Positions 3,691 through 40,081 of a stretch of 45,610 bases of DNA are shown piece after piece. How positions within the stretch are numbered: position 1 is the first letter of the stretch; the number at the start of each line of letters is the position of its first letter. Both the position numbers and the translations under genes were made by a program. The notes below the pieces were generated by a model that ran no database searches, was not told the DNA's origin, and worked only from the letters and a program-made list of their open reading frames with translations. Origin of the DNA: Bacteroidales bacterium (GTDB taxonomy: Bacteria; Bacteroidota; Bacteroidia; Bacteroidales; UBA10428); contig JAFGEO010000111.1 in NCBI GenBank assembly GCA_016931575.1, forward strand, positions 1 to 45,610. The letters are read 5' to 3'.

Positions 3691-3779
3691 GCACTTGCGC
3701 TGTCCTGGAGCTCGCCGTGCCAGGAATTCCGGAAGAATTGAGTTTAAATTCTTATATTCGGCATGATAACCGGAAAGCA

Positions 3780-4253
3780 ATGCGACGAAACGAGCAGGAA
3801 ATCACTGACATTAATACCATTTATGAAATTCTGGACCAATCTGAAGTTTGCAGGCTCGCTCTTCATGACAGTCCCTATCCCTATATTGTACCCCTGAATT
3901 TTGGGTACGAGGATCAGGGGGGATTGTGTTTATATTTTCACTGTGCCCTGGAAGGAAAAAAGCTGGATCTGATCCGGAAGAACAACAAGGTCTGTTTTGA
4001 AACAGAAGCAAACACCAGGCTGGTACGCTCTGCGAAAGCCTGTGGATGGTCGATGGAATACAGAAGTGTGATAGGTTATGGGACCCTTGGGATCCTTGAG
4101 GAAGAGGAATTGGTTAGGCACGGGTTGAAGATCGTCATGAGGCACTATTCCGGAACGTCAGCGCACGATTTTGATGCCCTCTCCCTTTCAAGATGCCTGG
4201 TATTGCGACTTCAGGTTGAGTCTTATTCCGCAAAGCAACACAAGCAATCCTGA
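3780..4253 (+). CDS. Pyridoxamine 5'-phosphate oxidase-like flavin protein (NimA family)
   Basis: A split-barrel flavin-binding protein of 157 residues from the chosen start. The start MRRNEQEITD followed by EILDQSEVCRLAL and YPYIVPLNFGYE is typical of the NimA/NimB branch of the PNPOx-like family. An upstream in-frame ATG at 3717 would add 21 residues that do not look like the family, so 3780 is preferred. Some relatives reduce 5-nitroimidazoles and confer metronidazole resistance; most family members are uncharacterised, so resistance should not be assumed. The gene stands alone between the histidine kinase and the attenuator leader. Confidence 0.85.
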   Translation: MRRNEQEITDINTIYEILDQSEVCRLALHDSPYPYIVPLNFGYEDQGGLCLYFHCALEGKKLDLIRKNNKVCFETEANTRLVRSAKACGWSMEYRSVIGYGTLGILEEEELVRHGLKIVMRHYSGTSAHDFDALSLSRCLVLRLQVESYSAKQHKQS

Positions 4254-4285: not shown

Positions 4286-4332
4286 AATCGCAGAAAAATA
4301 GCGGATTATAACTCTGCGATTTTGTATTTTTG
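4286..4332 (+). terminator. 9-bp dyad with T-rich tail: terminator of the flavin-protein gene and/or operator of the next promoter
   Basis: AATCGCAGA (4286-4294) and TCTGCGATT (4313-4321) are perfectly complementary, with an 18-nt loop, and are followed by TTTGTATTTTTG. As RNA this could terminate transcription of the preceding NimA-like gene. As DNA the right arm ends 3 bases before the -7 box at 4325, so the same dyad could be an operator. The sequence alone does not decide between the two. Confidence 0.5.
4325..4332 (+). promoter_or_regulatory. Bacteroidetes-type -7 promoter box for the attenuator leader
   Basis: TATTTTTG matches the Bacteroidetes TAnnTTTG -7 consensus exactly. With the usual spacing, transcription would start at about 4337-4341, that is at or next to the ATG of the small leader ORF at 4340. 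No clear -33 TTTG is visible. Confidence 0.6.
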
Positions 4333-4339
4333 CTCCATC

Positions 4340-4426
4340 ATGATGAACATGTGGCTACATAGGGATACAATTTCAACACTCGTGCTATTCAGGCACCGGG
4401 AGGTAGATAGTTGTATGCCAGCGTAG
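4340..4426 (+). CDS. Candidate 28-residue leader peptide, near-leaderless
   Basis: A short ORF opens with ATG ATG AAC ATG TGG and ends at TAG 4424-4426; the peptide ends RHREVDSCMPA. It lies entirely inside the predicted leader transcript, and its first ATG is within a few bases of the predicted start site, so the message would be leaderless or nearly so. Codons for Arg-His-Arg-Glu-Val overlap the segment 4395-4404 that can pair with the terminator below. The only Cys codon and the last Met codon follow directly. That layout is what a translation-coupled attenuator needs. The peptide is too short for coding statistics to help; translation is inferred from position, not shown. Confidence 0.45.
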   Translation: MMNMWLHRDTISTLVLFRHREVDSCMPA

Positions 4427-4464
4427 AACATCATAGTAGCAAACAATATATGAAACCTCCCGGT
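4395..4464 (+). promoter_or_regulatory. Candidate antiterminator pairing
   Basis: ACCGGGAGGT at 4395-4404 is the exact reverse complement of ACCTCCCGGT at 4455-4464, giving a 10-bp helix. Segment 4455-4463 is also the 5' arm of the terminator hairpin, so the two structures are mutually exclusive. Nine bases of 4396-4404 duplicate the terminator's 3' arm. Confidence 0.6.
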
Positions 4465-4486
4465 AAAAGCCGGGAGGTTTTTTTTT
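4453..4486 (+). terminator. Strong intrinsic terminator upstream of the exporter gene (attenuator)
   Basis: An 11-bp stem AAACCTCCCGG/CCGGGAGGTTT (4453-4463 and 4470-4480) with a TAAAAG loop is followed by six further T residues. It sits only 16 bases before the ATG at 4503, well downstream of the previous gene, so it most likely gates entry into the exporter gene rather than ending the earlier transcript. Confidence 0.85.
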
Positions 4487-4502
4487 ACCTAAATCTCAGA
4501 TT

Positions 4503-5456
4503 ATGGAAAATGAAAATGTCCCAGGTAAGTTCGGGGCTGTTCTGCTGGCACTTGGCGGAGTGGTCCTGTTTTCCGCAAAAGCGGTATTTGTAAAAATGGC
4601 GTATGCCTTTGAGACAGACGTAGTGCTGCTCCTGTTGGTCCGGTTAATGATTGCCCTGCCTGTATACTTGCTTATTGTTGTGTTTTCATTCAGGAAGTGG
4701 AAGAAAAAGTATCCCCTGAAAGCCATACATGTTCTGGCCATCACAGGCCTGGGACTTGGGGGGTATTACCTGGCCAGCTACCTCGATTTTGCAGGGCTTA
4801 AGTATGTGTCAGCCAGTGTCGAACGTATCATTCTTTTCGTCTACCCGACGATGGTGGTATTGCTGACTGCCCTGATGAACAGGAGCAGGATCCCCGGCAG
4901 GCAGATCTATGCCATTGTGATCACCTATTTTGGGATGTTCCTCATTTTTTATCAGGGGGTAGGTTCGGAACAACAGGTAAACCTGTTGCTCGGAGGAGCA
5001 TTGATTATTGGATGCGCATTTATCTATGCCCTGTTTATGATCGGCACCGAACGGTTAATGCCTTACGCCGGATCGGTGCAGCTTACAAGCTATACGATGA
5101 TTGTATCAACAGTATCCGTGCTGTGCCACTTTCTGTTGTCTGACCATCCTCCCCTGACAGGGGTTCCCGTGCAGGTATTCTGGATTGGCGGTGGAATGGC
5201 CATATTTTCAACGGTGATACCCTCCTTTATGATCGCTGAGGCCATTCGCAGGCTAAGTGCCTCAAATGTGGCTATCATCGGGAGTATAGGACCTTTTAGT
5301 ACCATGCTTATGGCCTCCGTGTTCCTGGGGGAAAGCCTGACAGCGTTTCAGTTCCTGGGTGCCATCATAATTATTTCAGGGGTCCTCCTGGTAAGCTTCG
5401 GGAAGAAAAAACCGGATGCCCAACCCGATAGCAGAGAGCTGAAAAAAGTAGCCTGA
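4503..5456 (+). CDS. EamA/DMT-family transporter
   Basis: An integral membrane protein of 317 residues with about ten hydrophobic segments arranged as two repeats of the EamA (drug/metabolite transporter) fold. The second repeat ends in the typical SVFLGESLTAFQFLGAIIIISGVLL. Members of the superfamily often export amino acids or small metabolites; E. coli EamA (YdeD) exports cysteine and O-acetylserine, but the substrate here cannot be read from sequence. It is preceded by a leader with a terminator and a competing helix, so expression is probably controlled by attenuation. A Tam-like methyltransferase follows after 64 bases and is likely co-transcribed. Confidence 0.9.
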   Translation: MENENVPGKFGAVLLALGGVVLFSAKAVFVKMAYAFETDVVLLLLVRLMIALPVYLLIVVFSFRKWKKKYPLKAIHVLAITGLGLGGYYLASYLDFAGLKYVSASVERIILFVYPTMVVLLTALMNRSRIPGRQIYAIVITYFGMFLIFYQGVGSEQQVNLLLGGALIIGCAFIYALFMIGTERLMPYAGSVQLTSYTMIVSTVSVLCHFLLSDHPPLTGVPVQVFWIGGGMAIFSTVIPSFMIAEAIRRLSASNVAIIGSIGPFSTMLMASVFLGESLTAFQFLGAIIIISGVLLVSFGKKKPDAQPDSRELKKVA

Positions 5457-5520: not shown

Positions 5521-6294
5521 ATGAAAAACGATTGGAACCCGGAGTTATACCTTCAATTTGAAAAGGAACGCAGGCAGCCCAGTATCGATCTGGTTTCCCG
5601 GATCGATAAAAAAAATCCTCAACAAATCATTGATATAGGCTGTGGTCCCGGAAACAGCACACAGGTTCTTCGCTACAGATGGCCTGATAGTAAGATCATG
5701 GGGATCGACAATTCCGAGGCTATGATCGCAAAAGCAAAAAGAGACTATCCGGACCAGGATTGGAATGTATTCGATGCGGCGACAGAAATGATCCCCGGAA
5801 AGTTCGATATCGTTTTCTCGAATGCAACAATTCAATGGATACCGGATCACCCTGGCCTGTTCAGAAAGTTCACTGACATGCTGTCAGACGGGGGTATACT
5901 GGCCGTTCAGATCCCATTATTCTGGAACATGCCTCTGGGCAAATCTATTCAGAAGACTTCCAGGATGGTAAGGTGGGCGAATAGGATAGGAAAGATTCAT
6001 GAGCTCTTTACCATTCACAATCCCGTGGAATATTTTGAGATGCTAAGTAAACTATTTGACCGGGTGGAGATATGGAAAACAGACTATATCCATATCATGG
6101 AAACTCAGGAGGCCATCCTGGAAATGATCCGAAGTACCGGCTTGCGACCCTATCTTGATCAGCTCGGGGAAGATGAAAAGTCAGGGTTTACTAACTTGAT
6201 TCTGGAAGGGATCAAAAGGGATTATCCTCACCGTGAAAACGGAAAAGTCTTATTCCCCTTTGAGCGTTTGTTCCTAATTGGGGAGAAGTGTTGA
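5521..6294 (+). CDS. tam: SAM-dependent methyltransferase, trans-aconitate 2-methyltransferase-like
   Basis: A class I methyltransferase of 257 residues. Motif I IDIGCGPGNSTQVL (about 37-50) and the acidic end of strand 2 (GIDNSEAMI) form the SAM site. The family-typical stretches NATIQWIPDHPGLF, LAVQIP, STGLRPYLDQL and the C-terminal FPFERLFLIG all match what is known of E. coli Tam, which methyl-esterifies trans-aconitate, an inhibitor of aconitase. The length is close to the E. coli enzyme. Substrate assignment is by family resemblance only. It follows the EamA transporter and is followed by a long inverted repeat. Confidence 0.82.
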   Translation: MKNDWNPELYLQFEKERRQPSIDLVSRIDKKNPQQIIDIGCGPGNSTQVLRYRWPDSKIMGIDNSEAMIAKAKRDYPDQDWNVFDAATEMIPGKFDIVFSNATIQWIPDHPGLFRKFTDMLSDGGILAVQIPLFWNMPLGKSIQKTSRMVRWANRIGKIHELFTIHNPVEYFEMLSKLFDRVEIWKTDYIHIMETQEAILEMIRSTGLRPYLDQLGEDEKSGFTNLILEGIKRDYPHRENGKVLFPFERLFLIGEKC

Positions 6295-6346: not shown

Positions 6347-6390
6347 AAATTTAAGTATGCTTAAAATATTATTTAAGCATACTTAAATTT
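6347..6390. repeat. 19-bp perfect inverted repeat with 6-nt loop
   Basis: Arms 6347-6365 and 6372-6390 are exact reverse complements (AAATTTAAGTATGCTTAAA and its complement) around ATATTA. Each arm itself contains the imperfect dyad TTAAG-TATG-CTTAA. The sequence TATATTTTTTA follows on the + side, so it may act as the terminator of the methyltransferase gene. The long, very AT-rich perfect dyad is also compatible with a protein-binding site. Confidence 0.8.
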
Positions 6391-11365: not shown

Positions 11366-12262
11366 ATGTGGGTTATTTTAGGGTTGTTTTCAGCACTTTT
11401 TCTGGGGATCTATGATGCTGTCCGTAAGAAGGCCCTGAAGGGGAATCCGGTTATTCCGGTCCTCTTTATTGCGAGTCTTACGGGTGCAATCCTTTTTGTT
11501 CCTTTTATTGTAGGTTCATCGGCAGGTATCATAGCATCAGATTCCGCATTTTTTGTTCCAGAGATTAGTCTTCTGCTGCACCTGAAGATTTTCCTTAAGT
11601 CCTTTATTGTGGGATTCTCCTGGTTCCTGGCATACCATGCCCTTAGTCATCTTCCTCTGACCATCATGGTCCCGATCCGGTCCACCGGTCCCATGTGGAC
11701 GCTGCTTGGGGCCATTATAATTTATGGCGAACGTTTTACTACCCTTCAGTGGTCGGGGATAATTATTGTCCTTTGTTTCTTTTATTATTTCACCCTGGCA
11801 GGAAGGAGAGAGGGAATTGATTTCTTTCGTAACAAATGGATCTTTGCGGCTATTGGTGCTACCCTTGTCGGAGCGGTCAGCAGTTTGTACGATAAATACC
11901 TTTTCAGCCAATATGACCGGATGGCTGTGCAATCCTGGTATACCCTTTACCTGATCGTCGTTCTGCTGCCATTTTTGATGCTGTTATGGTATCCGCGAAG
12001 GAAAGCCATGGATCCCTTCAGGTGGTCACCGCTGATTCCCTTAATAGGAATTTTATTGGTATTGTCCGATTTTCTTTATTTCTATGCCCTGGGAAATCCG
12101 GATTCTCTGATTGCAGTGCTTTCCGTCATACGGCGAAGCAGCGTGATTATTTCTTTTGTTTCCGGCGCCCTATTCTTCCGTGAGACCAACCTTAAGCGTA
12201 AGGGGCTGGCCCTGTTGGGGATCCTGGCAGGTGTAATCCTGATCGTAACCGGGAGCTTATGA
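11366..12262 (+). CDS. EamA/DMT-family transporter (second copy type)
   Basis: A 298-residue membrane protein with about ten hydrophobic segments and two DMT repeats. It resembles the first DMT protein of this window only at family level. The first repeat carries the typical HLPLTIMVPIRSTGPMWTLL region with ALIIYGERF-like helix end, and the second ends in FFRETNLKRKGLALLGILAGVILI. The substrate is unknown. It lies 221 bases after the pectinesterase and 169 bases before menG. No leader like the one ahead of the first exporter is visible. Confidence 0.87.
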   Translation: MWVILGLFSALFLGIYDAVRKKALKGNPVIPVLFIASLTGAILFVPFIVGSSAGIIASDSAFFVPEISLLLHLKIFLKSFIVGFSWFLAYHALSHLPLTIMVPIRSTGPMWTLLGAIIIYGERFTTLQWSGIIIVLCFFYYFTLAGRREGIDFFRNKWIFAAIGATLVGAVSSLYDKYLFSQYDRMAVQSWYTLYLIVVLLPFLMLLWYPRRKAMDPFRWSPLIPLIGILLVLSDFLYFYALGNPDSLIAVLSVIRRSSVIISFVSGALFFRETNLKRKGLALLGILAGVILIVTGSL

Positions 12263-12431: not shown

Positions 12432-13157
12432 TTGAGAGAGCAAAAGCGAGAGAAAGATTTTCCGCTGAAAAATTTTTATGCGGGTATTTACAGGCGCTAC
12501 GATCTGATCAACCGGATTTTCACCTTCGGGATGGACAAGCGCTGGAGGAAGGTCACTGCAGAATTGTGCATGAAAGAAGGGCCGGAACGCATTATTGATC
12601 TTTGTTGCGGTACCGGTGACCTGGCCTTTGCCATCAGGAAGAGAGCCGGGGGGGGTACGCAGGTTACCGGCTACGATTATAGCGAAGAAATGCTGCAGGT
12701 AGCCCGTGAAAAGCAGGGGAAGTTTTCCCTCGACCGTATCAGTTTTATCCAGGGTGACGCTGCAGACATGCCTTTTTCGGATGCGGAATTTGATTCGCTG
12801 ACCATTGGCTTTGGTTTTCGCAACCTAATCTATCAAAATTCAAATGCTGCCAGGCACCTGGCTGAGATTTCCAGGATATTGCGTAATGGGTCGCACCTGT
12901 ATATCCTGGAGAGCGCAATTCCCTCCAACCGCTTAATACACTTTTTCTACAGTCTTTATCTTAGTCTGGTGCTCATTCCGCTTGGGGGGATCATTTCCGG
13001 CGATTGGAAAGCCTACCGGTACCTGGCAAAATCATCGGCAGGATTCTATCAGCCTGCCGAGCTTCAGGAGATCCTGAAACAATACGGGATGCGGATATGC
13101 AGTGTCAGGAAGTTCTTTTTTGGGGCTGCAAGTCTTATGATTGCCCGAAAGGAATAA
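12432..13157 (+). CDS. menG: Demethylmenaquinone methyltransferase
   Basis: A UbiE/MenG-type enzyme of 241 residues that methylates demethylmenaquinone with SAM as the last step of menaquinone synthesis. Motif I is IDLCCGTGDLAFAI with Asp56. The post-motif GYDYSEEML, the DAADMPFSDAEFDSLTIGFGFRN block and the C-terminal SSAGFYQPAEL are family hallmarks. The N-terminal YDLINRIFTFGMDKRWRK also matches. The only usable start that keeps this N-terminus is TTG at 12432, because an in-frame stop lies three codons upstream. It precedes the men block by 99 bases and has its own -7 box. Confidence 0.93.
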   Translation: MREQKREKDFPLKNFYAGIYRRYDLINRIFTFGMDKRWRKVTAELCMKEGPERIIDLCCGTGDLAFAIRKRAGGGTQVTGYDYSEEMLQVAREKQGKFSLDRISFIQGDAADMPFSDAEFDSLTIGFGFRNLIYQNSNAARHLAEISRILRNGSHLYILESAIPSNRLIHFFYSLYLSLVLIPLGGIISGDWKAYRYLAKSSAGFYQPAELQEILKQYGMRICSVRKFFFGAASLMIARKE

Positions 13158-13205
13158 TTGGTAAGTCGGAATGAATGGCATGGAGATAAAGCTACCTTTT
13201 CTCAG

Positions 13206-13235
13206 TTTTTGTTCGCCGGGGTTTTGTTATATTTG
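13206..13235 (+). promoter_or_regulatory. Promoter of the menI-menE operon
   Basis: A TTTTTG at 13206-13211 resembles the -33 element, and TATATTTG at 13228-13235 fits the -7 consensus, with a 16-base spacer between them. Transcription would start near 13241, giving a leader of only about 15 bases before the ATG at 13257. Confidence 0.65.
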
Positions 13236-13256
13236 ATCTGAACTTATTTCAGCAAT

Positions 13257-13661
13257 ATGACCATCGAGGAAATAAATAAGTTATGCAAGAATAGTTTCAT
13301 TGGATACCTTGATATTGAATTTCTTGCTTACGGAGAGGATTTCGTGGAAGCACGGATGCCTATTGACGAAAATAAATTGCAGCCTATGGGGTTGCTCCAT
13401 GGCGGAGCTTCGCTCGCCCTGGCAGAAACTGTTGCCAGTGCCGGCTCTTTATTAGCGGTCGATGAAACAAAATACAATGTTTTAGGTTTACAGGTAACGG
13501 GGAACCATGTTTCTACCATCAGTTCCGGCGATGTCATAGCCAGGGCGGAAATTGTTCACCGGGGGGCATCAACTCACGTCTGGGATGTGAAGATCAGCAG
13601 TGAGCAGGGAAAATTGATTTCCGTAGCCAGGGTTACCAACATCATCATGGAGAAAACATAG
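13257..13661 (+). CDS. menI: Hotdog-fold thioesterase, probable 1,4-dihydroxy-2-naphthoyl-CoA hydrolase
   Basis: A 134-residue single-domain hotdog protein of the PaaI/MenI type. The central motif GLLHGGASLALAETVAS (about 44-60) contains the HGG turn and the catalytic-position Glu of this family. It is the first gene of the men operon and lies 11 bases before menF. Menaquinone synthesis needs a thioesterase to release 1,4-dihydroxy-2-naphthoate from CoA after MenB, so MenI is the natural assignment. The family is broad, and the substrate is inferred from gene context rather than from sequence alone. Confidence 0.82.
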   Translation: MTIEEINKLCKNSFIGYLDIEFLAYGEDFVEARMPIDENKLQPMGLLHGGASLALAETVASAGSLLAVDETKYNVLGLQVTGNHVSTISSGDVIARAEIVHRGASTHVWDVKISSEQGKLISVARVTNIIMEKT

Positions 13662-13672
13662 ACAGACAGCGG

Positions 13673-14803
13673 ATGCAGGAAAAACTGACAAAGACATACT
13701 CAGTATTTGATGCCCTGAAACTGATTTTGGGTAAAAAACTCTCCTTTGCGATATACAGGTTGCCTGCACAGGAAGAGATTACCCTCATCGTGCAAAAAGA
13801 CCATGTACTTCAAGAACTGAAAAATCTGGCCGAGGTGGGGGAGGATGGCGGTTTTCTGATTGCTCCTTTTGCTACGGAAAACGGAGACAAAACCTACCTT
13901 CTCAAACCTGATTATGTATTCCGGAACAGCCTGGAAGCCGAAGAATTTCATGAGCTGGAATCACTGGAGATCCCTGTTCTTGACGGAACTGAGCAAATTG
14001 TCCCTCGCGAGATCGCCAAAGATAACTATATCCGGCAGGTGAATGATACCATTGACCTTATCCGGGAGAAGGAGTACGATAAGGTGGTGTTATCCAGGGC
14101 TAAAATCATCAGAGGGAACTACCGCAGTGAACTTAAAATGATCTTTCACCTGCTTTGTGCATCCTATCCCAATGCTTTCGTTTACCTGTTTAACTTTAAC
14201 GGAAAGTGCTGGACCGGAGCCAGTCCCGAACCACTTGTCTGCACTCACGGGAATGAGCTGTGCACGGTCTCTCTGGCAAGTACACGCCCCTATTCCCGCG
14301 AAAATATGGACCTGTCGAACTGGAACACAAAAGAATTACAGGAGCAGGAATACGTGACCGAGTACATCGAGGATATTCTCGAAGAATATGGAGGCACCGG
14401 TGCCTCAAAACTCGGGCCATACACCAAGAAAGCAGGCAGGTTATTGCATTTGCGCACCGATTTTCGATTGCCCCTGGATCGGATCGGAGAGAAGTTGCCC
14501 TACCTGGTGAGTGCACTGCACCCTACTTCAGCAGTATGCGGAATGCCCATGGAAAAATCGCTCCGGTATATTAAGCAGACTGAATCGCACAACCGTGAAT
14601 ACTATGCCGGTTTCCTGGGACCCATGATGATAGACGATCAACTTCAGCTATTTGTGAACCTGCGATGCATGAAAGTGCTGGAGAACGCTGTGGTCCTGTA
14701 TGTTGGGGGAGGCATTACCTCCGACTCAGTCCCTGAGGACGAGTGGGAAGAAACTGAAATCAAGGCAGAAACACTTTTATCCATTCTCCAGCAAATTCAA
14801 TAA
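13673..14803 (+). CDS. menF: Isochorismate synthase
   Basis: A chorismate-binding enzyme of 376 residues that converts chorismate to isochorismate, the committed step of the menaquinone pathway. The C-terminal two thirds carry the family signatures: YDKVVLSRAK, WTGASPEPLV, the HPTSAVCGMP block with Glu two residues on, REYYAGFLG, and a final EDEWEETEIKAETLLSI. The N-terminal part is variable, as usual. Its stop codon TAA shares one base with the ATG of menD, indicating translational coupling. Confidence 0.93.
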   Translation: MQEKLTKTYSVFDALKLILGKKLSFAIYRLPAQEEITLIVQKDHVLQELKNLAEVGEDGGFLIAPFATENGDKTYLLKPDYVFRNSLEAEEFHELESLEIPVLDGTEQIVPREIAKDNYIRQVNDTIDLIREKEYDKVVLSRAKIIRGNYRSELKMIFHLLCASYPNAFVYLFNFNGKCWTGASPEPLVCTHGNELCTVSLASTRPYSRENMDLSNWNTKELQEQEYVTEYIEDILEEYGGTGASKLGPYTKKAGRLLHLRTDFRLPLDRIGEKLPYLVSALHPTSAVCGMPMEKSLRYIKQTESHNREYYAGFLGPMMIDDQLQLFVNLRCMKVLENAVVLYVGGGITSDSVPEDEWEETEIKAETLLSILQQIQ

Positions 14804-16473
14804 TGCCACATCCACTCCAGCATATTACAGACCTTAGCGAGATTTGTTACCAGGCAGGGTTTGCCTATGTTGTCATTTCACCCGGATCCAGAAATGCCCC
14901 GCTGATCGATGCGTTCAGCTCCCGCTTTCAGGAACGTTGTTACAGCATTGTAGATGAGCGAAGTGCAGCCTATTTTGGCTTGGGGCTCTCCCGCGAAAGC
15001 GGGAAACCTGTAGCCTTGCTCTGCACTTCCGGGACCGCAGTTCTGAATTATGCTCCTGGCCTGGCAGAGGCATATTATCAGCAGGTTCCCCTGCTTGCTG
15101 TTACGGCGGACCGCCCGGCAGAATGGATCGATCAGCAGGATAACCAGACCATCAGACAGGAAGGAATTTACCGGAATTATATAAAGCATTCGGTGGTCTT
15201 ACCCGAAAAGATGTCTTCTGAGGAAAACCTTGAACAGGCACATTCCCGGATCGCCAAGGCGATAGCTGCTGTTTGCATAGCACCCCGCGGCCCTGTGCAC
15301 CTCAACGTGCCCCTTCACGAACCTCTGTATGGCGGGCTGCCTTCCGCTTCTCCGGATCTTCCCGTCCAGGACCTCTGTCTTTCTTCTTCAACAGGTGCGG
15401 AAATACCGCATGGTTTCCTGGATGCCTGGACGCGTGCCGGAAAGATCCTGATACTGCAGGGTCAGGGAACCCCTGATCGCCAATTGCATAAAAACCTTGA
15501 ATGCTTATGCCAGGATCACCGGCTGGTCCTTATGGCAGAAAACATTTCAAACCAATATACCAACGATGCAATAACTACCCCCGACCTCTATTTTGCGCAG
15601 GTGAAGGACGGGGAACTGCCTGAACCCGATCTGTTAATATATACCGGAGGTCAACTGGTCTCAAAACGCATAAAAACATACCTGCGTGGTATCAGGGTGC
15701 AGGAAACCTGGAGGGTGGGGGTGGATGCCTATCCCATGGATACTTTCAGACAGGAAAATAAATTCGTCCCCAGCGATGCAGGGACAATTTTTGAAAAACT
15801 TGGCAGCATGATACAACCGGGAGCTCCCTCTGAGTTTAAATCTGCCTGGATGGCGGCTGCAAGAAAGGTATTGAACTGGCAGAATGAACTACAGAAGTCC
15901 CTGCCGTTCTCTGATGTTTCAGTCGTTCGGGATATCCTGAATTCACTGCCCTCAGGTACCAGGACAGAGTTGGGCAACAGCAGTGCCATACGCTATTCGC
16001 AGCTGGTTCCTGCGAGAGCCGACTTAATCTACTACTCAAACCGCGGAGTATCAGGGATTGACGGCTGCCTTTCAACCGCTTCGGGAACCGCTGCTGCCTC
16101 GGGGGAGCCTTGCTATATTATTCTGGGCGACCTTAGTTTTGTGTATGATTCCAATGCACTTTGGAACCGGGCGCTTTCCAAAAAACTCAGGATCATTGTT
16201 CTTAATAATCAGGGAGGAGGCATCTTCGGACTGATTGAAGGTCCCGGTAAAAAGGCGGCCTTTAAGGACTACTTCCTGGCCCATCATCCGGTTGACCTTC
16301 AAAAATTAGCAGAAGCCTTTAATTTGAATTATTTTTGTGTGAAGGACAAGCAGTCATTGCAGTCGGCACTTGCCGAAACTGCTAAAGGACAGAATGCTGC
16401 AGTAGTGGTGGAAGTCCTTACCGAACAGGAAATTAACACACTGGCTTACCATAGAGTAATGCAGAAAGATTGA
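14803..16473 (+). CDS. menD: 2-succinyl-5-enolpyruvyl-6-hydroxy-3-cyclohexene-1-carboxylate synthase
   Basis: A thiamine-diphosphate enzyme of 556 residues that joins isochorismate and 2-oxoglutarate to give SEPHCHC. The N-terminal VVISPGSRNAPLIDAF and the CTSGTAVLNYAPGLAEAYY block are typical of MenD. The ThDP/Mg site begins at GDLSFVYDSNALWN (Gly442, Asp443), followed by NNQGGGIFGLIEG. The length is normal for the family. The ATG overlaps the menF stop by one base. menB follows after 24 bases. Confidence 0.95.
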   Translation: MPHPLQHITDLSEICYQAGFAYVVISPGSRNAPLIDAFSSRFQERCYSIVDERSAAYFGLGLSRESGKPVALLCTSGTAVLNYAPGLAEAYYQQVPLLAVTADRPAEWIDQQDNQTIRQEGIYRNYIKHSVVLPEKMSSEENLEQAHSRIAKAIAAVCIAPRGPVHLNVPLHEPLYGGLPSASPDLPVQDLCLSSSTGAEIPHGFLDAWTRAGKILILQGQGTPDRQLHKNLECLCQDHRLVLMAENISNQYTNDAITTPDLYFAQVKDGELPEPDLLIYTGGQLVSKRIKTYLRGIRVQETWRVGVDAYPMDTFRQENKFVPSDAGTIFEKLGSMIQPGAPSEFKSAWMAAARKVLNWQNELQKSLPFSDVSVVRDILNSLPSGTRTELGNSSAIRYSQLVPARADLIYYSNRGVSGIDGCLSTASGTAAASGEPCYIILGDLSFVYDSNALWNRALSKKLRIIVLNNQGGGIFGLIEGPGKKAAFKDYFLAHHPVDLQKLAEAFNLNYFCVKDKQSLQSALAETAKGQNAAVVVEVLTEQEINTLAYHRVMQKD

Positions 16474-16497
16474 TCGAAACGGAGAAAAAAGATACGT

Positions 16498-17322
16498 ATG
16501 AGTACAAGCAGGGAGTGGAAAAGCCTCAGGGATTATGAGGAAATAAAATTTGAATTCTGGGAAGGTATTGCCAAAATAACCATCAACAGGCCGCGCTACC
16601 GCAATGCTTTCACGCCGGATACCACCAAGGAAATGTGTGATGCCATGGTAATTTGCAGGGAGAATCCGGATATTTCCGTGGTTATCCTGACAGGTGCCGG
16701 GGATAAGGCATTTTGCAGCGGGGGAGACCAGAATGTAAAGAGCTTTGCGGGTTATATTGGAAAGGATGGAGTTCCCCGATTGAATATCCTGGACCTTCAA
16801 AAACAGATCCGGTCCATTCCCAAGCCGGTAATTGCCATGGTAAACGGCTATGCCATTGGCGGCGGGCATGTCCTTCATGTGGTCTGTGACTTGTCCATTG
16901 CTTCCGGGAATGCGATTTTCGGACAGACAGGGCCTAAAGTCGGAAGTTTTGATGCCGGCTTCGGATCTTCGTACCTTGCCAGGGTTGTCGGGCAGAAAAA
17001 AGCACGGGAGATCTGGTTCCTCTGCGAACAGTACACAGCACAGGAAGCCCTGGATATGGGACTCGTCAATAAGGTTGTACCGCTGGCCGAGCTGGAAGAT
17101 GAAACCGTTAAGTGGTGTCAGAAGATCATGGAGCGAAGCCCGCTGGCCCTCCGGATGATTAAGGCCGGCCTGAATGCCGAGCTTGACGGACAGGCCGGAC
17201 TCCAGGAATTTGCCGGGAATGCAACCATGCTGTACTATATGACGGAAGAAGCACAGGAAGGAAAGAAAGCCTTCCTGGAAAAACGCAAACCTGATTTTAA
17301 AAAATACCCTAAAATGCCCTGA
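16498..17322 (+). CDS. menB: 1,4-dihydroxy-2-naphthoyl-CoA synthase
   Basis: A crotonase-fold enzyme of 274 residues that cyclises O-succinylbenzoyl-CoA. It carries [10 protein letters not shown] near residue 78, the oxyanion-hole stretch [14 protein letters not shown], and the diagnostic [20 protein letters not shown]. The Gly in QTG (Gly145) corresponds to the bicarbonate-dependent type I enzymes; type II enzymes have Asp at this position. The C-terminal [11 protein letters not shown] is also typical. It lies between menD and menA, 6 bases from the latter. Confidence 0.95.
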
Positions 17323-17328
17323 TCGGAC

Positions 17329-18222
17329 ATGAGGATGAAAGTGTGGATACAAGCATTCAGGCTGAGGACATTGCCTCTGGCATTTTCCTGTTCTGTGATG
17401 GGGAGCTTCCTTGCCTGGTCCGGGAATCATTTCCGGTGGGAAATATTCCTGCTCGCTGCCCTGACCACACTTTTCCTGCAGATTCTCTCAAACCTGGCCA
17501 ACGATTTTGGTGATTCGGAACACGGGGTGGATAATGCTGAGCGGGTGGGCCCCATGCGAACGGTGCAGGGAGGTTTGATCAGCAGATCAGCTATGAAGGG
17601 CGCCATTGCCATACTTTCCGTATTAGCCCTGATTTCGGGATCATTACTCATTTTTATTGGACTTGATAGCATAAAGCAGATTGTACTTTTCTTCCTATTG
17701 GGAATCCTGGCTATTGTTGCTGCATTAAAATACACCATTGGAAAAAATCCCTATGGATATGTAGGTTTGGGAGATATCTTCGTTTTTCTGTTTTTCGGGA
17801 TATTGGGAGTATCCGGAACCTATTACCTGCATACCCACCACTTTTCCGCCTGGGTGCTCCTGCCGGCTGCAACCATCGGGTTGCTGAGCTCAGGGGTACT
17901 TAACCTGAATAATATGAGGGATATCAAAAACGATGCGGAGAGCGGGAAACGAACATTGGTCGTGCGATTGGGATCGAAAGGCGCAAAAATCTACCACACC
18001 GTGATCATCGGACTGTCCATGGTCTGCAGCCTGATTTATACCCTTGAATTTTATCATTCAATTTTCCAGCTGCTTTTTATTCTGACATTCCCGCTCTTTG
18101 TTATGAATATCATTGTTGTTATTCAGAATACCGAACCGAAAGCGTTAAATAGTGAGTTAAAGAAACTTGCCATCAGTACCTTTATTTTTGCCATTATTTT
18201 TGGATTGGGATTAGTACTGTAA
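17329..18222 (+). CDS. menA: 1,4-dihydroxy-2-naphthoate polyprenyltransferase
   Basis: A UbiA-family membrane prenyltransferase of 297 residues, with about eight to nine membrane segments, that attaches the isoprenoid tail to DHNA. The two Asp-rich motifs are clear: NDFGDSEHGVDNAERVGPMR (about 59-78) and NNMRDIKNDAESGKRTL (about 197-213). A second in-frame ATG lies two codons after the first; either may be used. The TAA stop shares one base with the ATG of menC. Confidence 0.94.
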   Translation: MRMKVWIQAFRLRTLPLAFSCSVMGSFLAWSGNHFRWEIFLLAALTTLFLQILSNLANDFGDSEHGVDNAERVGPMRTVQGGLISRSAMKGAIAILSVLALISGSLLIFIGLDSIKQIVLFFLLGILAIVAALKYTIGKNPYGYVGLGDIFVFLFFGILGVSGTYYLHTHHFSAWVLLPAATIGLLSSGVLNLNNMRDIKNDAESGKRTLVVRLGSKGAKIYHTVIIGLSMVCSLIYTLEFYHSIFQLLFILTFPLFVMNIIVVIQNTEPKALNSELKKLAISTFIFAIIFGLGLVL

Positions 18223-19280
18223 TGATCAAAGCCGTTATCAGACATAGGGATTTTATATTTAGGAGGGCAGCCACAACTTCCAGGGGAACCCTCCATTCAA
18301 AATCCGTTCATTTCATCGTCCTGTATGATGATGCGAACCCTTTTGTATCAGGGATTGGAGAATGCTCTGTTTTCCCCGGACTGAGTATGGATGATGTGGA
18401 AAATTTCAGCACAAAGCTTGAGGAGGTGGCTCAGATGATCAATAAGGGCTGGTTCAACCTCAATGCTCCCCTCTATGGATTCCCCTCCATTAATTTCGCC
18501 CTTGAAACAGCCTTTCGGGACCTTGAAAACAAAGGAACCAGGATCTTATACCCTTCAAAATTCACTTCCGGGGAGGATTTTATTCCGATCAACGGGCTGA
18601 TCTGGATGGGAAACCTGGAGGATATGGTAAAGCAGATCAATCAAAAGCTGAACGAAGGATTCACCTGCCTGAAAATGAAGATCGGGGCATTGGATTTTAA
18701 TGAGGAATACCTTATTCTTAGCGCTATTCGAAAAGAATATAAAGAAGAAGAGCTGGAAATCAGGCTGGATGCAAACGGGGCTTTTCAGCCCGACGACGCC
18801 CTGGAGCTGCTCTACCGGCTTTCAGATTTAGGTATTCACAGCATAGAGCAGCCCATCCTGCCCTCACAACTGGAAGAAATGGCTGCGCTCTGTGAAACTA
18901 CACCGGTTCCGATTGCCCTGGATGAAGAACTGATCGGCAAGTATCCGGTTGAAAACAAACGGCAACTTTTGAAGCTGATCAATCCGCAGTATATTGTCCT
19001 GAAACCCGGACTGCTTGGGGGTATCAAATCCTGCGAAGAATGGATAAAAGTTGCCGGCGAGCAGGAAACAGGATGGTGGATCACTTCTTCACTGGAAACA
19101 AATATCGGGCTCAATGCCATTGCACAATGGACCTACACACTGAACAGTTCCATGCCCCAGGGATTGAGCACGGGTGGATTGTTTGTAAATAATATAGACT
19201 CCCCCCTTGCACTTGCCGGAGAAAAGTTGTATTATTTCCCCAGAAAAAAATGGGACCTTTCCCTCTTTACCTCAAAATGA
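18222..19280 (+). CDS. menC: o-Succinylbenzoate synthase
   Basis: An enolase-superfamily enzyme of 352 residues that dehydrates SHCHC to o-succinylbenzoate. The catalytic set is complete: Lys151 and Lys153 in LKMK, metal ligands Asp183 (LDANGAF), Glu209 (IEQPI) and Asp234 (ALDEEL), and Lys261 (VLKPGLLGG). The family has low overall sequence identity, and related enzymes can be racemases, but the men context settles the role. It starts on the last base of the menA stop and ends 1 base before the proposed menE start. Confidence 0.94.
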   Translation: MIKAVIRHRDFIFRRAATTSRGTLHSKSVHFIVLYDDANPFVSGIGECSVFPGLSMDDVENFSTKLEEVAQMINKGWFNLNAPLYGFPSINFALETAFRDLENKGTRILYPSKFTSGEDFIPINGLIWMGNLEDMVKQINQKLNEGFTCLKMKIGALDFNEEYLILSAIRKEYKEEELEIRLDANGAFQPDDALELLYRLSDLGIHSIEQPILPSQLEEMAALCETTPVPIALDEELIGKYPVENKRQLLKLINPQYIVLKPGLLGGIKSCEEWIKVAGEQETGWWITSSLETNIGLNAIAQWTYTLNSSMPQGLSTGGLFVNNIDSPLALAGEKLYYFPRKKWDLSLFTSK

Positions 19281-19281
19281 G

Positions 19282-20364
19282 ATGCCCTTACAAAACAATT
19301 ATCACGGACTGATCCTGAACAACAGGATAATACCTGTTGACGACCTGCAGGATTTTTCGGAGACTATGATCTCGGATGGAAGTGTCCCGGAATGGCAGAA
19401 GAAAGTCTTCTCCTTCATTCTCGACTGGGTTGATGACCGGGAGTATATTGAGCAGTTATCCTCCGGAACCACGGGAATACCAAAACAGCTGCAGCTGTCC
19501 AAACAGTCGATGGTCGAATCAGCCGAACAAACCTGTAAGTATTTTGATATCACCTTCGGTCAGACATCCCTGCTTTGTCTTCCGATCGAGTATATTGCCG
19601 GTAAGATGATGGTAATCAGAGCGTTTGTCGGAGGGATGAACCTGTTAATTGCCGAACCCAGCAGTATGCCGGACCTGACTGGTTTTGGACAGATTGATTT
19701 TTGTGCAATGGTGCCGCTACAGGTGTATAACTCCCTGAACAATGTGGATACCCTTCGAAAGATCAGGAAACTGATCATCGGTGGAGGGGAGATCAGGGAT
19801 GAGCTGGAGGTGATGCTGCGTGATATGCCAAACGAGGTCTATGCAAGTTACGGAATGGCCGAAACCTGTTCGCACGTAGCGATCCGGCGCATCAGCGGCA
19901 TGGCACATGAAAGATTCTACCGGGCAATACCGGGCGTAATGTTCTCTACGGATGATCGGAATTGTCTGAAAATCAGTGCCAGTTTCCTGGAGGCTGATGT
20001 TGTGACAAACGATGTGGTGGACCTGATTGACAGGACCTCTTTCCGATGGATCGGAAGGTATGATAACCTGATAAATTCCGGGGGGGTAAAGATTGTACCC
20101 GAGGAGATAGAAGCCCTGGTATCCAAAACCACCGGCCTTGACTGTGCAGTTATAGGATTGCCGGACCAGAAGCTGGGAGAGAAGGTGATCCTCGTACTGG
20201 AAAAGGGGGGTGAGGATATTAACCATGCTGAATTGAAAACCCTCCTGGAGGAAGAGCTGCCTAAACATGCACAACCCAAGGAGATAATCCTTCTGGATGA
20301 GCTGCCAAGGAACCATTCATTTAAAGTTGACCGGAACAAGCTGAAACAGGACTTGAGTAGCTGA
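19282..20364 (+). CDS. menE: O-succinylbenzoate-CoA ligase
   Basis: An ANL-superfamily acyl-CoA synthetase of 360 residues, short as is usual for Bacteroidetes MenE. It has the adenylate P-loop LSSGTTGIPK (about 59-68), the ASYGMAETCSH block, YDNLINSGGVKIVPEEIEAL, and the C-terminal PRNHSFKVDRNKL, whose first Lys should be the adenylation lysine. A longer in-frame start at 19207 would overlap menC by 74 bases and add an unrelated segment, so the ATG at 19282, directly after the menC stop, is preferred. It is the last gene of the operon and is convergent with the DUF302 gene 22 bases away. Confidence 0.93.
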   Translation: MPLQNNYHGLILNNRIIPVDDLQDFSETMISDGSVPEWQKKVFSFILDWVDDREYIEQLSSGTTGIPKQLQLSKQSMVESAEQTCKYFDITFGQTSLLCLPIEYIAGKMMVIRAFVGGMNLLIAEPSSMPDLTGFGQIDFCAMVPLQVYNSLNNVDTLRKIRKLIIGGGEIRDELEVMLRDMPNEVYASYGMAETCSHVAIRRISGMAHERFYRAIPGVMFSTDDRNCLKISASFLEADVVTNDVVDLIDRTSFRWIGRYDNLINSGGVKIVPEEIEALVSKTTGLDCAVIGLPDQKLGEKVILVLEKGGEDINHAELKTLLEEELPKHAQPKEIILLDELPRNHSFKVDRNKLKQDLSS

Positions 20365-39796: not shown

Positions 39797-40081
39797 GTAG
39801 TGACAAGTGATCGGCACAAAAATCTACCCGGGAAACCCAACATGCCATCCGGGGGGCACCTGACTTCATCCGGGAGACAAAAAAACCTCCCGGTTACCGG
39901 AATTAATCCAAACCGGCTTGTGTTTTCTCCATGGCTTTGGCCTGGGATCCACTCTCCTGAAGCAAGTGTCCGGCTTCCGCCCACAATCGTTCACATGCGA
40001 TTTCCTTCCAATAAGCAGTTTATAAACATGCAGCAAGAGAGAAAAAATCAGTACTTTTAACCATATTTAGTACTTGCACTT
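39797..40081. other. Palindrome-rich intergenic region after dnaK
   Basis: Together with the terminator this gives 339 bases without a recognisable gene. It contains a CCGGGAG-N10-CTCCCGG hairpin (39870-39893) directly overlapping CCGGT-T-ACCGG (39890-39900), and near its end a possible -7 box TACTTTTA (40052-40059) for the next gene. An 86-codon open frame at 39800-40060 lacks any protein-like character. Confidence 0.5.
39870..39900. repeat. Compound GC-rich palindrome
   Basis: CCGGGAG (39870-39876) and CTCCCGG (39887-39893) form a 7-bp stem around an A-rich loop. The last bases also belong to the 11-base palindrome CCGGTTACCGG (39890-39900). On the minus strand the loop is a run of seven T. 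Confidence 0.6.

Follow-up and report, generated by a model that had tools for sequence, protein, structure and literature searches.

The window analysed in this study, a stretch of 45,610 nucleotides from a Bacteroidales bacterium (contig JAFGEO010000111.1), carries ahead of an EamA/DMT transporter gene an element which is probably a ribosome-mediated (leader-peptide) transcription attenuator, predicted in most relatives to be read through at a shortage of charged Trp-tRNA. Judging from the sequence and its computed folding, the element is identified as an attenuator with high confidence and its control by a translated leader with good confidence; tryptophan is fairly probable as the signal across the leader group, and for the copy in the window its chance falls a shade short of even. 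The arrangement of small ORF, antiterminator, terminator and EamA gene has been found, in varying strength, in 18 leaders from Bacteroidales-type and Cytophagales genomes, the place equivalent to that in the window being occupied in G007, G005 and 15 more.

Organization of the leader region

The upstream neighbour of the element is a gene for a Pyridox_ox_2 protein (3717-4253). The -7 promoter box of Bacteroidota has the consensus TAnnTTTG, and a promoter-like box, TATTTTTG, at 4325-4332 on the + strand matches it exactly, beginning 15 nt ahead of the leader ATG; no clear -33 box was seen by eye upstream of it. An exact -7 box within 60 nt 5' of the leader ATG was present in 8 of the 18 leaders. 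The leader ORF of the window (4340-4426, + strand) is an open frame of 28 amino acids, MMNMWLHRDTISTLVLFRHREVDSCMPA, with leaders at the same place in the relatives, and its sole Trp codon, proposed as the control codon, is codon 5 (4352-4354, + strand), situated 42 nt ahead of the antiterminator. The antiterminator strand ACCGGGAGGT (4395-4404, + strand) occupies codons 19-22 of this ORF. In the MFE fold of 4335-4490 this strand is taken by a competing (protector) hairpin (4355-4426, + strand), which ends at the leader stop codon. The preliminary description of this DNA had proposed an attenuator layout, and this proposal holds, but the small ORF and the competing hairpin had been overlooked in it. 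The intrinsic terminator hairpin (4452-4481, + strand) follows, and its T run ends at 4486, leaving the 16-base gap already described before the ATG (4503) of the EamA/DMT gene, which encodes 317 amino acids (4503-5456, + strand).

Antiterminator and terminator structures

Bases 4395-4404 had been described as complementary to 4455-4464, the 5' arm of the terminator; the two were found to be an exact opposite-strand match, which beats 500/500 shuffles. Bases 4469-4478 in the 3' arm repeat ACCGGGAGGT with one mismatch (9/10), in agreement with the nine repeated bases counted earlier. The strong terminator formerly placed at 4453-4480 was recovered by the terminator scan as a stem of 13 pairs (4452-4481) closing a loop of 4 nt, the T tail being at 4478-4486. 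Its 5' arm can pair either with 4395-4404 or with the 3' arm, and the two helices are mutually exclusive, as had been claimed: the RNA 4367-4466 folds as the antiterminator (-27.7 kcal/mol; 1/200 shuffles as good), whereas 4406-4487 folds as the terminator (-29.7; 0/200 shuffles as good). The leader-to-arm duplex reaches -20.7 against a shuffled mean of -9.6, and none of 500 dinucleotide shuffles was as good (p=0.002). In the absence of a ribosome, the protector hairpin and the antiterminator were found to be near balance (P(anti)=0.67). What defines an attenuator is present in the window, namely an intrinsic terminator ahead of a gene with an exclusive antiterminator, and it is joined there by a short leader ORF which overlaps the antiterminator and whose translation would alter the folding according to the ribosome-position analysis. 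A second exact copy of ACCGGGAGGT was seen at 39885-39894 of the window on the minus strand, about 140 nt past a DnaK-like ORF (named by eye).

No known riboswitch class had been recognised in the preliminary description, and this agrees with the Rfam search, which gave no match at gathering score in the window or in the 10 scanned stretches (L001 being the window's own); the sensor, however, is most likely a translated leader peptide. A small-molecule riboswitch with an overlapping, untranslated ORF would be in keeping with the strong folding of the leader (z -5.3 including the terminator, z -1.6 when ending at 4464) and with the long hairpin preceding the terminator. Besides the Rfam result, there is no sequence-conserved aptamer, as only terminator stretches matched outside the window in a 60-genome search, and the frame-specific Trp enrichment described below would be left unexplained; a riboswitch is accordingly given a very small probability, and the element of the window is probably not one. 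Under the riboswitch reading 18 sub-threshold Rfam matches (E up to 5) were also considered and set aside as probably due to chance.

Leaders in related genomes

A DNA search with the whole leader over 60 related genomes gave a match in five, one of which was the genome of the window itself; the matches in the remaining four were confined to short stretches of the terminator part, and in G005 and G007 the matching stretch lies directly 5' of the EamA orthologue. Since the DNA search had given only terminator stretches, the search was moved to homologues of the EamA protein. Orthologues were found in 3 of 23 genomes of the window's family (E<=1e-40), in 4 of 295 genomes of its order (1e-50), in 5 of 393 genomes of the order at 1e-60 with a Marinilabiliaceae query and in 27 of 395 genomes of the phylum (1e-45). 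Further, the protein search gave 30/231 in the order of G704 and 73/121 in family f130, which holds Arcicella and Pseudarcicella records (15/222 at a stricter limit). Two final searches over 18 and 2 genomes brought nothing further.

In a named collection 543 relatives were listed, and the best 80 of these make up the named loci. From the 73 places in f130, 30 loci and 40 fetched stretches were used, G814 (partial) was excluded, and G503 and G560 are the same as L105 and L108; gene starts in the 40 loci L150-L189 were placed at a fixed offset. In total 208 upstream stretches were pooled (7 duplicates and L242, the same as L123, being removed), of which 49, all of them non-redundant, carry a terminator within 150 nt. 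In 22 of these 49 the terminator follows, after a gap of 15-45 nt, a small ORF of 12-40 codons, and 17 of the 22 show a leader-to-arm duplex of -8 kcal/mol or better. A Trp codon was found in 16 of these 17 ORFs and in one of the five ORFs with a weaker duplex. Most EamA homologues are without a leader, 17 of the 208 upstream stretches passing all of these criteria. The 18 working leaders are the 17 passing ones minus L177, whose ORF lies inside the upstream gene, plus L012 and L029; L012 was added by hand after the rule had dropped it, its longest ATG being inside the upstream gene, and L029 was added despite its weak duplex. Inner ATGs were taken for L056 and L133. Terminators in Aquimarina and some other loci were judged by eye to be the ends of upstream genes and were set aside.

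Two observations on the collected homologues may be recorded here. The EamA protein of L056, from a record titled Cellulophaga sp. BC115SP, is 100% identical to that of L120 (G754, family f130), and the name of this record may be wrong. Leaderless Flavobacteriaceae-type homologues (e.g. L026, L071, L072, L074, L079 and L093) were seen by eye to share an upstream box like GAACATCGTAAT, which is possibly an operator.

Conservation and covariation

In the broad group of the window all seven identified orthologues (the window, G007, G005, G139, G059, L015 and L016) carry a leader ORF and a terminator, the antiterminators of G139 (L012) and L015 being weak. In the shuffle test the antiterminators gave a Fisher value of 4e-11 over 17 leaders, the near copy L062 being left out of the sum, and p<=0.05 individually in 9 of the 18. 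The other nine antiterminators are not individually significant (L012 is the worst, p 0.91), and their positions and the spacings derived from them are therefore unsure. In the core of the helix the bases of the antiterminator, the 5' arm and the 3' arm change together as three-way compensatory changes: at position 3 nine leaders have G-C, seven A-T and one G-T, and at position 4 nine have G-C, five A-T and four G-T, among pairs picked by duplex folding and hence biased towards pairing, for which the shuffle test serves as the control. A lack of conservation or covariation of 4395-4404 with 4455-4464 in relatives had been named beforehand as one of two results that would refute an attenuator; the pairing was found to be both conserved and covarying, which supports the attenuator layout.

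Among 430 other ORF starts (>=150 aa, mechanically found in the window and the 80 named loci) a terminator was present in 14, a small ORF in 2 and an antiterminator in none, and 0 of the 430 passed the leader criteria. Moreover, the presence of the leader is clustered on a quick EamA tree of 160 proteins (duplicates, L236 and L249 removed), with 5 changes against a shuffled mean of 17.3 and 0/500 shuffles as low, on a tree which has some long branches and in which near-copies aid the clustering. The leaders of the window and G007 differ by conservative changes, L-H-[RK]-[DN]-[TS]-I-x-T.

These results bear on the possibility that the hairpin is the ordinary terminator of the upstream gene and that its complementarity to the leader arose by chance. 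Several other EamA homologues do have terminators which, by eye, end the upstream gene. The hairpin of the window, on the other hand, lies 16 nt before the EamA ATG and about 200 nt past the upstream stop codon with the promoter-like box in between, and its antiterminator is conserved and covarying; we regard this explanation as the least probable of those considered.

Two leader layouts were observed in the collection. In the window, L012, L013 and L014 the antiterminator falls within the ORF, out of reach of a ribosome standing on the stop codon; in L029, L043 and L229-L231 it overlaps the stop-codon ribosome.

Tryptophan codons and trp operon leaders

The 18 leader ORFs comprise 413 codons and contain 20 TGG codons in frame against 3 and 4 in the other two frames, an in-frame Trp codon being present in 17 of the 18. 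The first 14 leaders, some of which are related and during whose collection the idea of Trp arose, have 16 Trp residues against 3.0 expected from the protein background of the named loci (p 9e-8); all four leaders found after that (L229-L232, three of them from one family) have W12. The first Trp stands 19-30 nt ahead of the antiterminator in 14 of 17 leaders, the exceptions being the window (42 nt), its nearest relative G007 (L014, 7 nt) and L015 (14 nt); in G005, which is of the same genus as the window, the W lies at 22 nt. Further, the first Trp occupies an antiterminator-competent position in 16 of 17 leaders against 10.0 expected given the proportion of competent codons (P=0.001). The first ORF of L020 lacks Trp; an alternative ORF with Trp was tried and rejected, its Trp being badly placed (P 0.15), and L020 stays an exception.

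The trp operon leaders of the same genomes served as a positive control. A search for trpE in 11 leader-bearing genomes gave a full-length match in 10 (410-435 bits against a curated cut-off of 517.7, hence called trpE-like here) and weak matches only in the 11th, G712, which is 88% complete. Ahead of every one of the 10 trpE-like genes (loci L209-L218) lies what resembles a textbook trp attenuator, made up of a small ORF encoding WWW or WWWW, an antiterminator and a terminator; in the genome of the window the leader ahead of the trpE-like gene is MNSILFTNWWWLRIRQKP (G000:C160 before 3803). The third Trp of the trp leaders is 17-25 nt from the antiterminator (10/10), a spacing which the EamA leaders share with their first Trp, and a ribosome at this third Trp frees the antiterminator in 10/10 (P 0.99 or more). 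Rfam gave no match at gathering score in the four trp loci scanned (L209, L212, L213 and L216). These bacteria appear to use Trp-codon attenuation.

Ribosome position and proposed mechanism

With a ribosome on the first Trp, the antiterminator was free in 16 or 17 of 17 leaders when only the RNA downstream of the ribosome was folded (footprint edges A+10 to A+18), and in 15 of 17 when pairing across the ribosome was allowed. In the window the antiterminator is free with the ribosome at Trp codon 5 (P=0.98), and a ribosome anywhere at codons 2-15 frees it; a ribosome at codons 17-22 blocks it, and one at 25-26 blocks it by half. In G007 (L014) the ribosome at the Trp codon gave P 0.39, and 0.05 if RNA on its two sides could pair. 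In the window, L012, L013 and L014 none of the antiterminator is covered by a ribosome on the stop codon; if RNA may pair across the ribosome, this position predicts read-through for the window (0.99) and L014 (1.00), while for L012 (0.27) and L013 (0.18) it does not. When all 18 leaders were folded with such pairing allowed, P at the stop codon was <=0.3 in eight, and without a ribosome 8 of the 18 fold closed. In the trp leaders the corresponding values were 3/10 at stop (P<=0.3) and 4/10 without a ribosome; as these control leaders fare no better, the fold measures settle the off state neither way.

In the proposed mechanism, transcription would start shortly after the -7 box, at about 4338, and proceed through the 28-codon leader ORF, which a ribosome would translate behind the RNA polymerase. 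If this ribosome were held upstream of about codon 16, the hairpin 4355-4426 could not close fully and 4395-4404 would pair with 4455-4464; the terminator would then not form and the EamA gene would be transcribed. With the ribosome over codons 17-22 as the polymerase reaches the terminator, or with the competing hairpin closed, the terminator would be expected to form. Across the leaders Trp is the codon which seems best placed to hold the ribosome, from which we infer that the signal is most likely a shortage of charged Trp-tRNA, and in most relatives the transporter would be made together with the trp operon under this shortage. The signal and the sign are less certain for the window, because its Trp is 42 nt away and because a ribosome at the stop codon leaves its antiterminator uncovered. 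As a pair, the window and G007 could respond to another signal, either general stalling or a C-terminal codon, and could have the reverse sign.

A leader-peptide attenuator which in the window copy does not sense Trp is the foremost of the other explanations, though it is held to be unlikely. The element would respond to any ribosome slowed near the start of the ORF, by an antibiotic or general starvation, or to a stall on a different codon, for instance the C-terminal Cys. The breadth of codons 2-15 over which a ribosome frees the antiterminator and the unusual spacing of the Trp codons of the window and G007 are consistent with it, as are the Cys codon four codons ahead of the stop in the window, G007 and G005 and the 13 Cys residues in the first 14 leaders against 2.1 expected from the proteome background. 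Against it stand the strong Trp enrichment among the leaders, including G005 of the same genus, and the absence of any Cys excess over the other frames (13 in frame against 19 and 8 out of frame), for which reason Cys was rejected as the control amino acid.

Relation to known attenuators

TnaC, the leader peptide of the tryptophanase operon, is short, has one essential Trp near codon 12 and controls Trp metabolism and transport; the system is Rho-dependent, and the ribosome stalls at the stop codon under excess Trp, with the Trp at a fixed distance from a C-terminal Pro. The EamA leaders are likewise short with a Trp near codon 12. An arrest peptide of this type would give the opposite sign: with free Trp the ribosome would be held close to the leader's end and an exporter would be turned on. 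It could account for W12 in the three 24-aa leaders L229-L231, which resembles E. coli TnaC, for the 11 of 18 leaders whose first Trp is codon 12 or 13 (with the inner ATG for L056) and for the antiterminator left free by a stop-codon ribosome in the window and G007; the EamA family also includes exporters, and the YddG and RhtA models match below their cut-offs. However, a stop-codon ribosome covers at least two thirds of the antiterminator in 11 of the 18 leaders, which should favour termination, and a C-terminal Pro is absent from all 18 peptides. The first Trp stands at a variable 6 to 24 residues from the peptide's end, whereas its distance to the antiterminator is kept in 14 of 17; the terminator of the window is intrinsic, and in most leaders the geometry predicts the sign opposite to that of TnaC. 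Arrest of this kind is considered improbable, only slightly less so than a riboswitch.

The Trp-codon attenuator favoured here is closer to the TrpL type of the trp operons, with which the EamA leaders share a short ORF with Trp codon(s), an intrinsic terminator and an antiterminator that overlaps or comes after the 3' end of the ORF. The TrpL type has three or four Trp in a row, whereas a single one is usual in the EamA leaders (L015 and L016 have two or three), which, unlike the TrpL type, control a transporter; the window further differs in its odd spacing and in its antiterminator, which lies well inside the ORF. The His and Phe leader families of Rfam follow the same logic as the EamA leaders, and sub-threshold matches to both were obtained, His_leader with 22.5 of 49 bits (E 0.1) and Phe_leader with 20.7 of 55 (E 0.3), both including the terminator. 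Vitreschak and colleagues reportedly predicted in 2004 amino-acid attenuators ahead of transporter genes, some of them in Bacteroidetes; leader peptides are said to have been used there, as in the present work, to infer the substrate of a transporter, the transporters in question reportedly being histidine transporters, and no EamA gene is known to have been among them. No leader-peptide attenuator of an EamA gene appeared among the openly licensed PMC papers listed by the literature searches. According to a 2010 survey, besides the atypical ermC leader no such attenuator had been demonstrated outside Proteobacteria and Actinobacteria, and the survey contributed a Firmicutes leader-peptide case of its own (PMC2965389). 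Leader-peptide attenuation is a known kind of control; here it proposes a substrate for an orphan group of transporters.

Transporter and gene neighbourhood

The preliminary description had named the gene product an EamA exporter. Membership in the EamA/DMT family is confirmed by Pfam (EamA, 107.4 bits against a cut-off of 28.2, in two stretches), but the role of exporter is not established. Five NCBIfam models match below their cut-offs, including TIGR00950 (82 bits), YddG (51 bits) and RhtA (29 bits); for the aromatic amino acid exporter YddG (NF050091) the score was 51.3 bits against a cut-off of 300. The family label leaves the direction of transport unsettled, since LicB (7b0k, E 6e-4), the only solved relative found by sequence, is presumably a choline importer. 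The commonest leader geometry predicts expression when charged Trp-tRNA is scarce, and uptake therefore fits better than export. On the evidence of the leaders, Trp or a Trp-related compound is the most likely substrate, and the transporter may be viewed as a candidate Trp-related one, perhaps an importer; uptake is proposed tentatively, with somewhat less than even confidence. More broadly, this EamA/DMT group of Bacteroidales-type bacteria and Cytophagales might serve the uptake of Trp or a Trp precursor and be regulated jointly with the trp operon by a leader peptide that mostly has one Trp codon, and the switch might have been rewired in the window's genus, the antiterminator coming to lie well inside the ORF with changed spacing and perhaps sign; this wider proposal is rather unlikely to hold in all its parts.

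The EamA family is very large and its members seldom have a known substrate; a leader which names an amino acid gives one of its groups a testable substrate. This group could also prove to be a case of uptake among proteins mostly annotated as exporters. Moreover, leader-peptide attenuation is thinly documented in Bacteroidota, and the present leaders enlarge this record; their variation within the genus may provide a case of attenuator rewiring.

A second EamA-like ORF is located at 11366-12262 of the window, directly ahead of a menaquinone-type gene cluster (about 12432-20364; names by eye), and no T-run terminator or leader was seen by eye upstream of it. No Trp-related operon partners of EamA were seen in the few places inspected, and the gene downstream of EamA differs among the window, G005 and L015. 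In the window it is a class I methyltransferase gene (Tam-like; 5521-6294, + strand), 64 nt downstream of the EamA gene and possibly co-transcribed with it; in G005 another ORF, not the methyltransferase, stands 3' of the EamA gene. An AT-rich inverted repeat of 19 pairs followed by T-rich sequence was observed at 6347-6390 of the window, 3' of the methyltransferase gene, and is probably the operon terminator.
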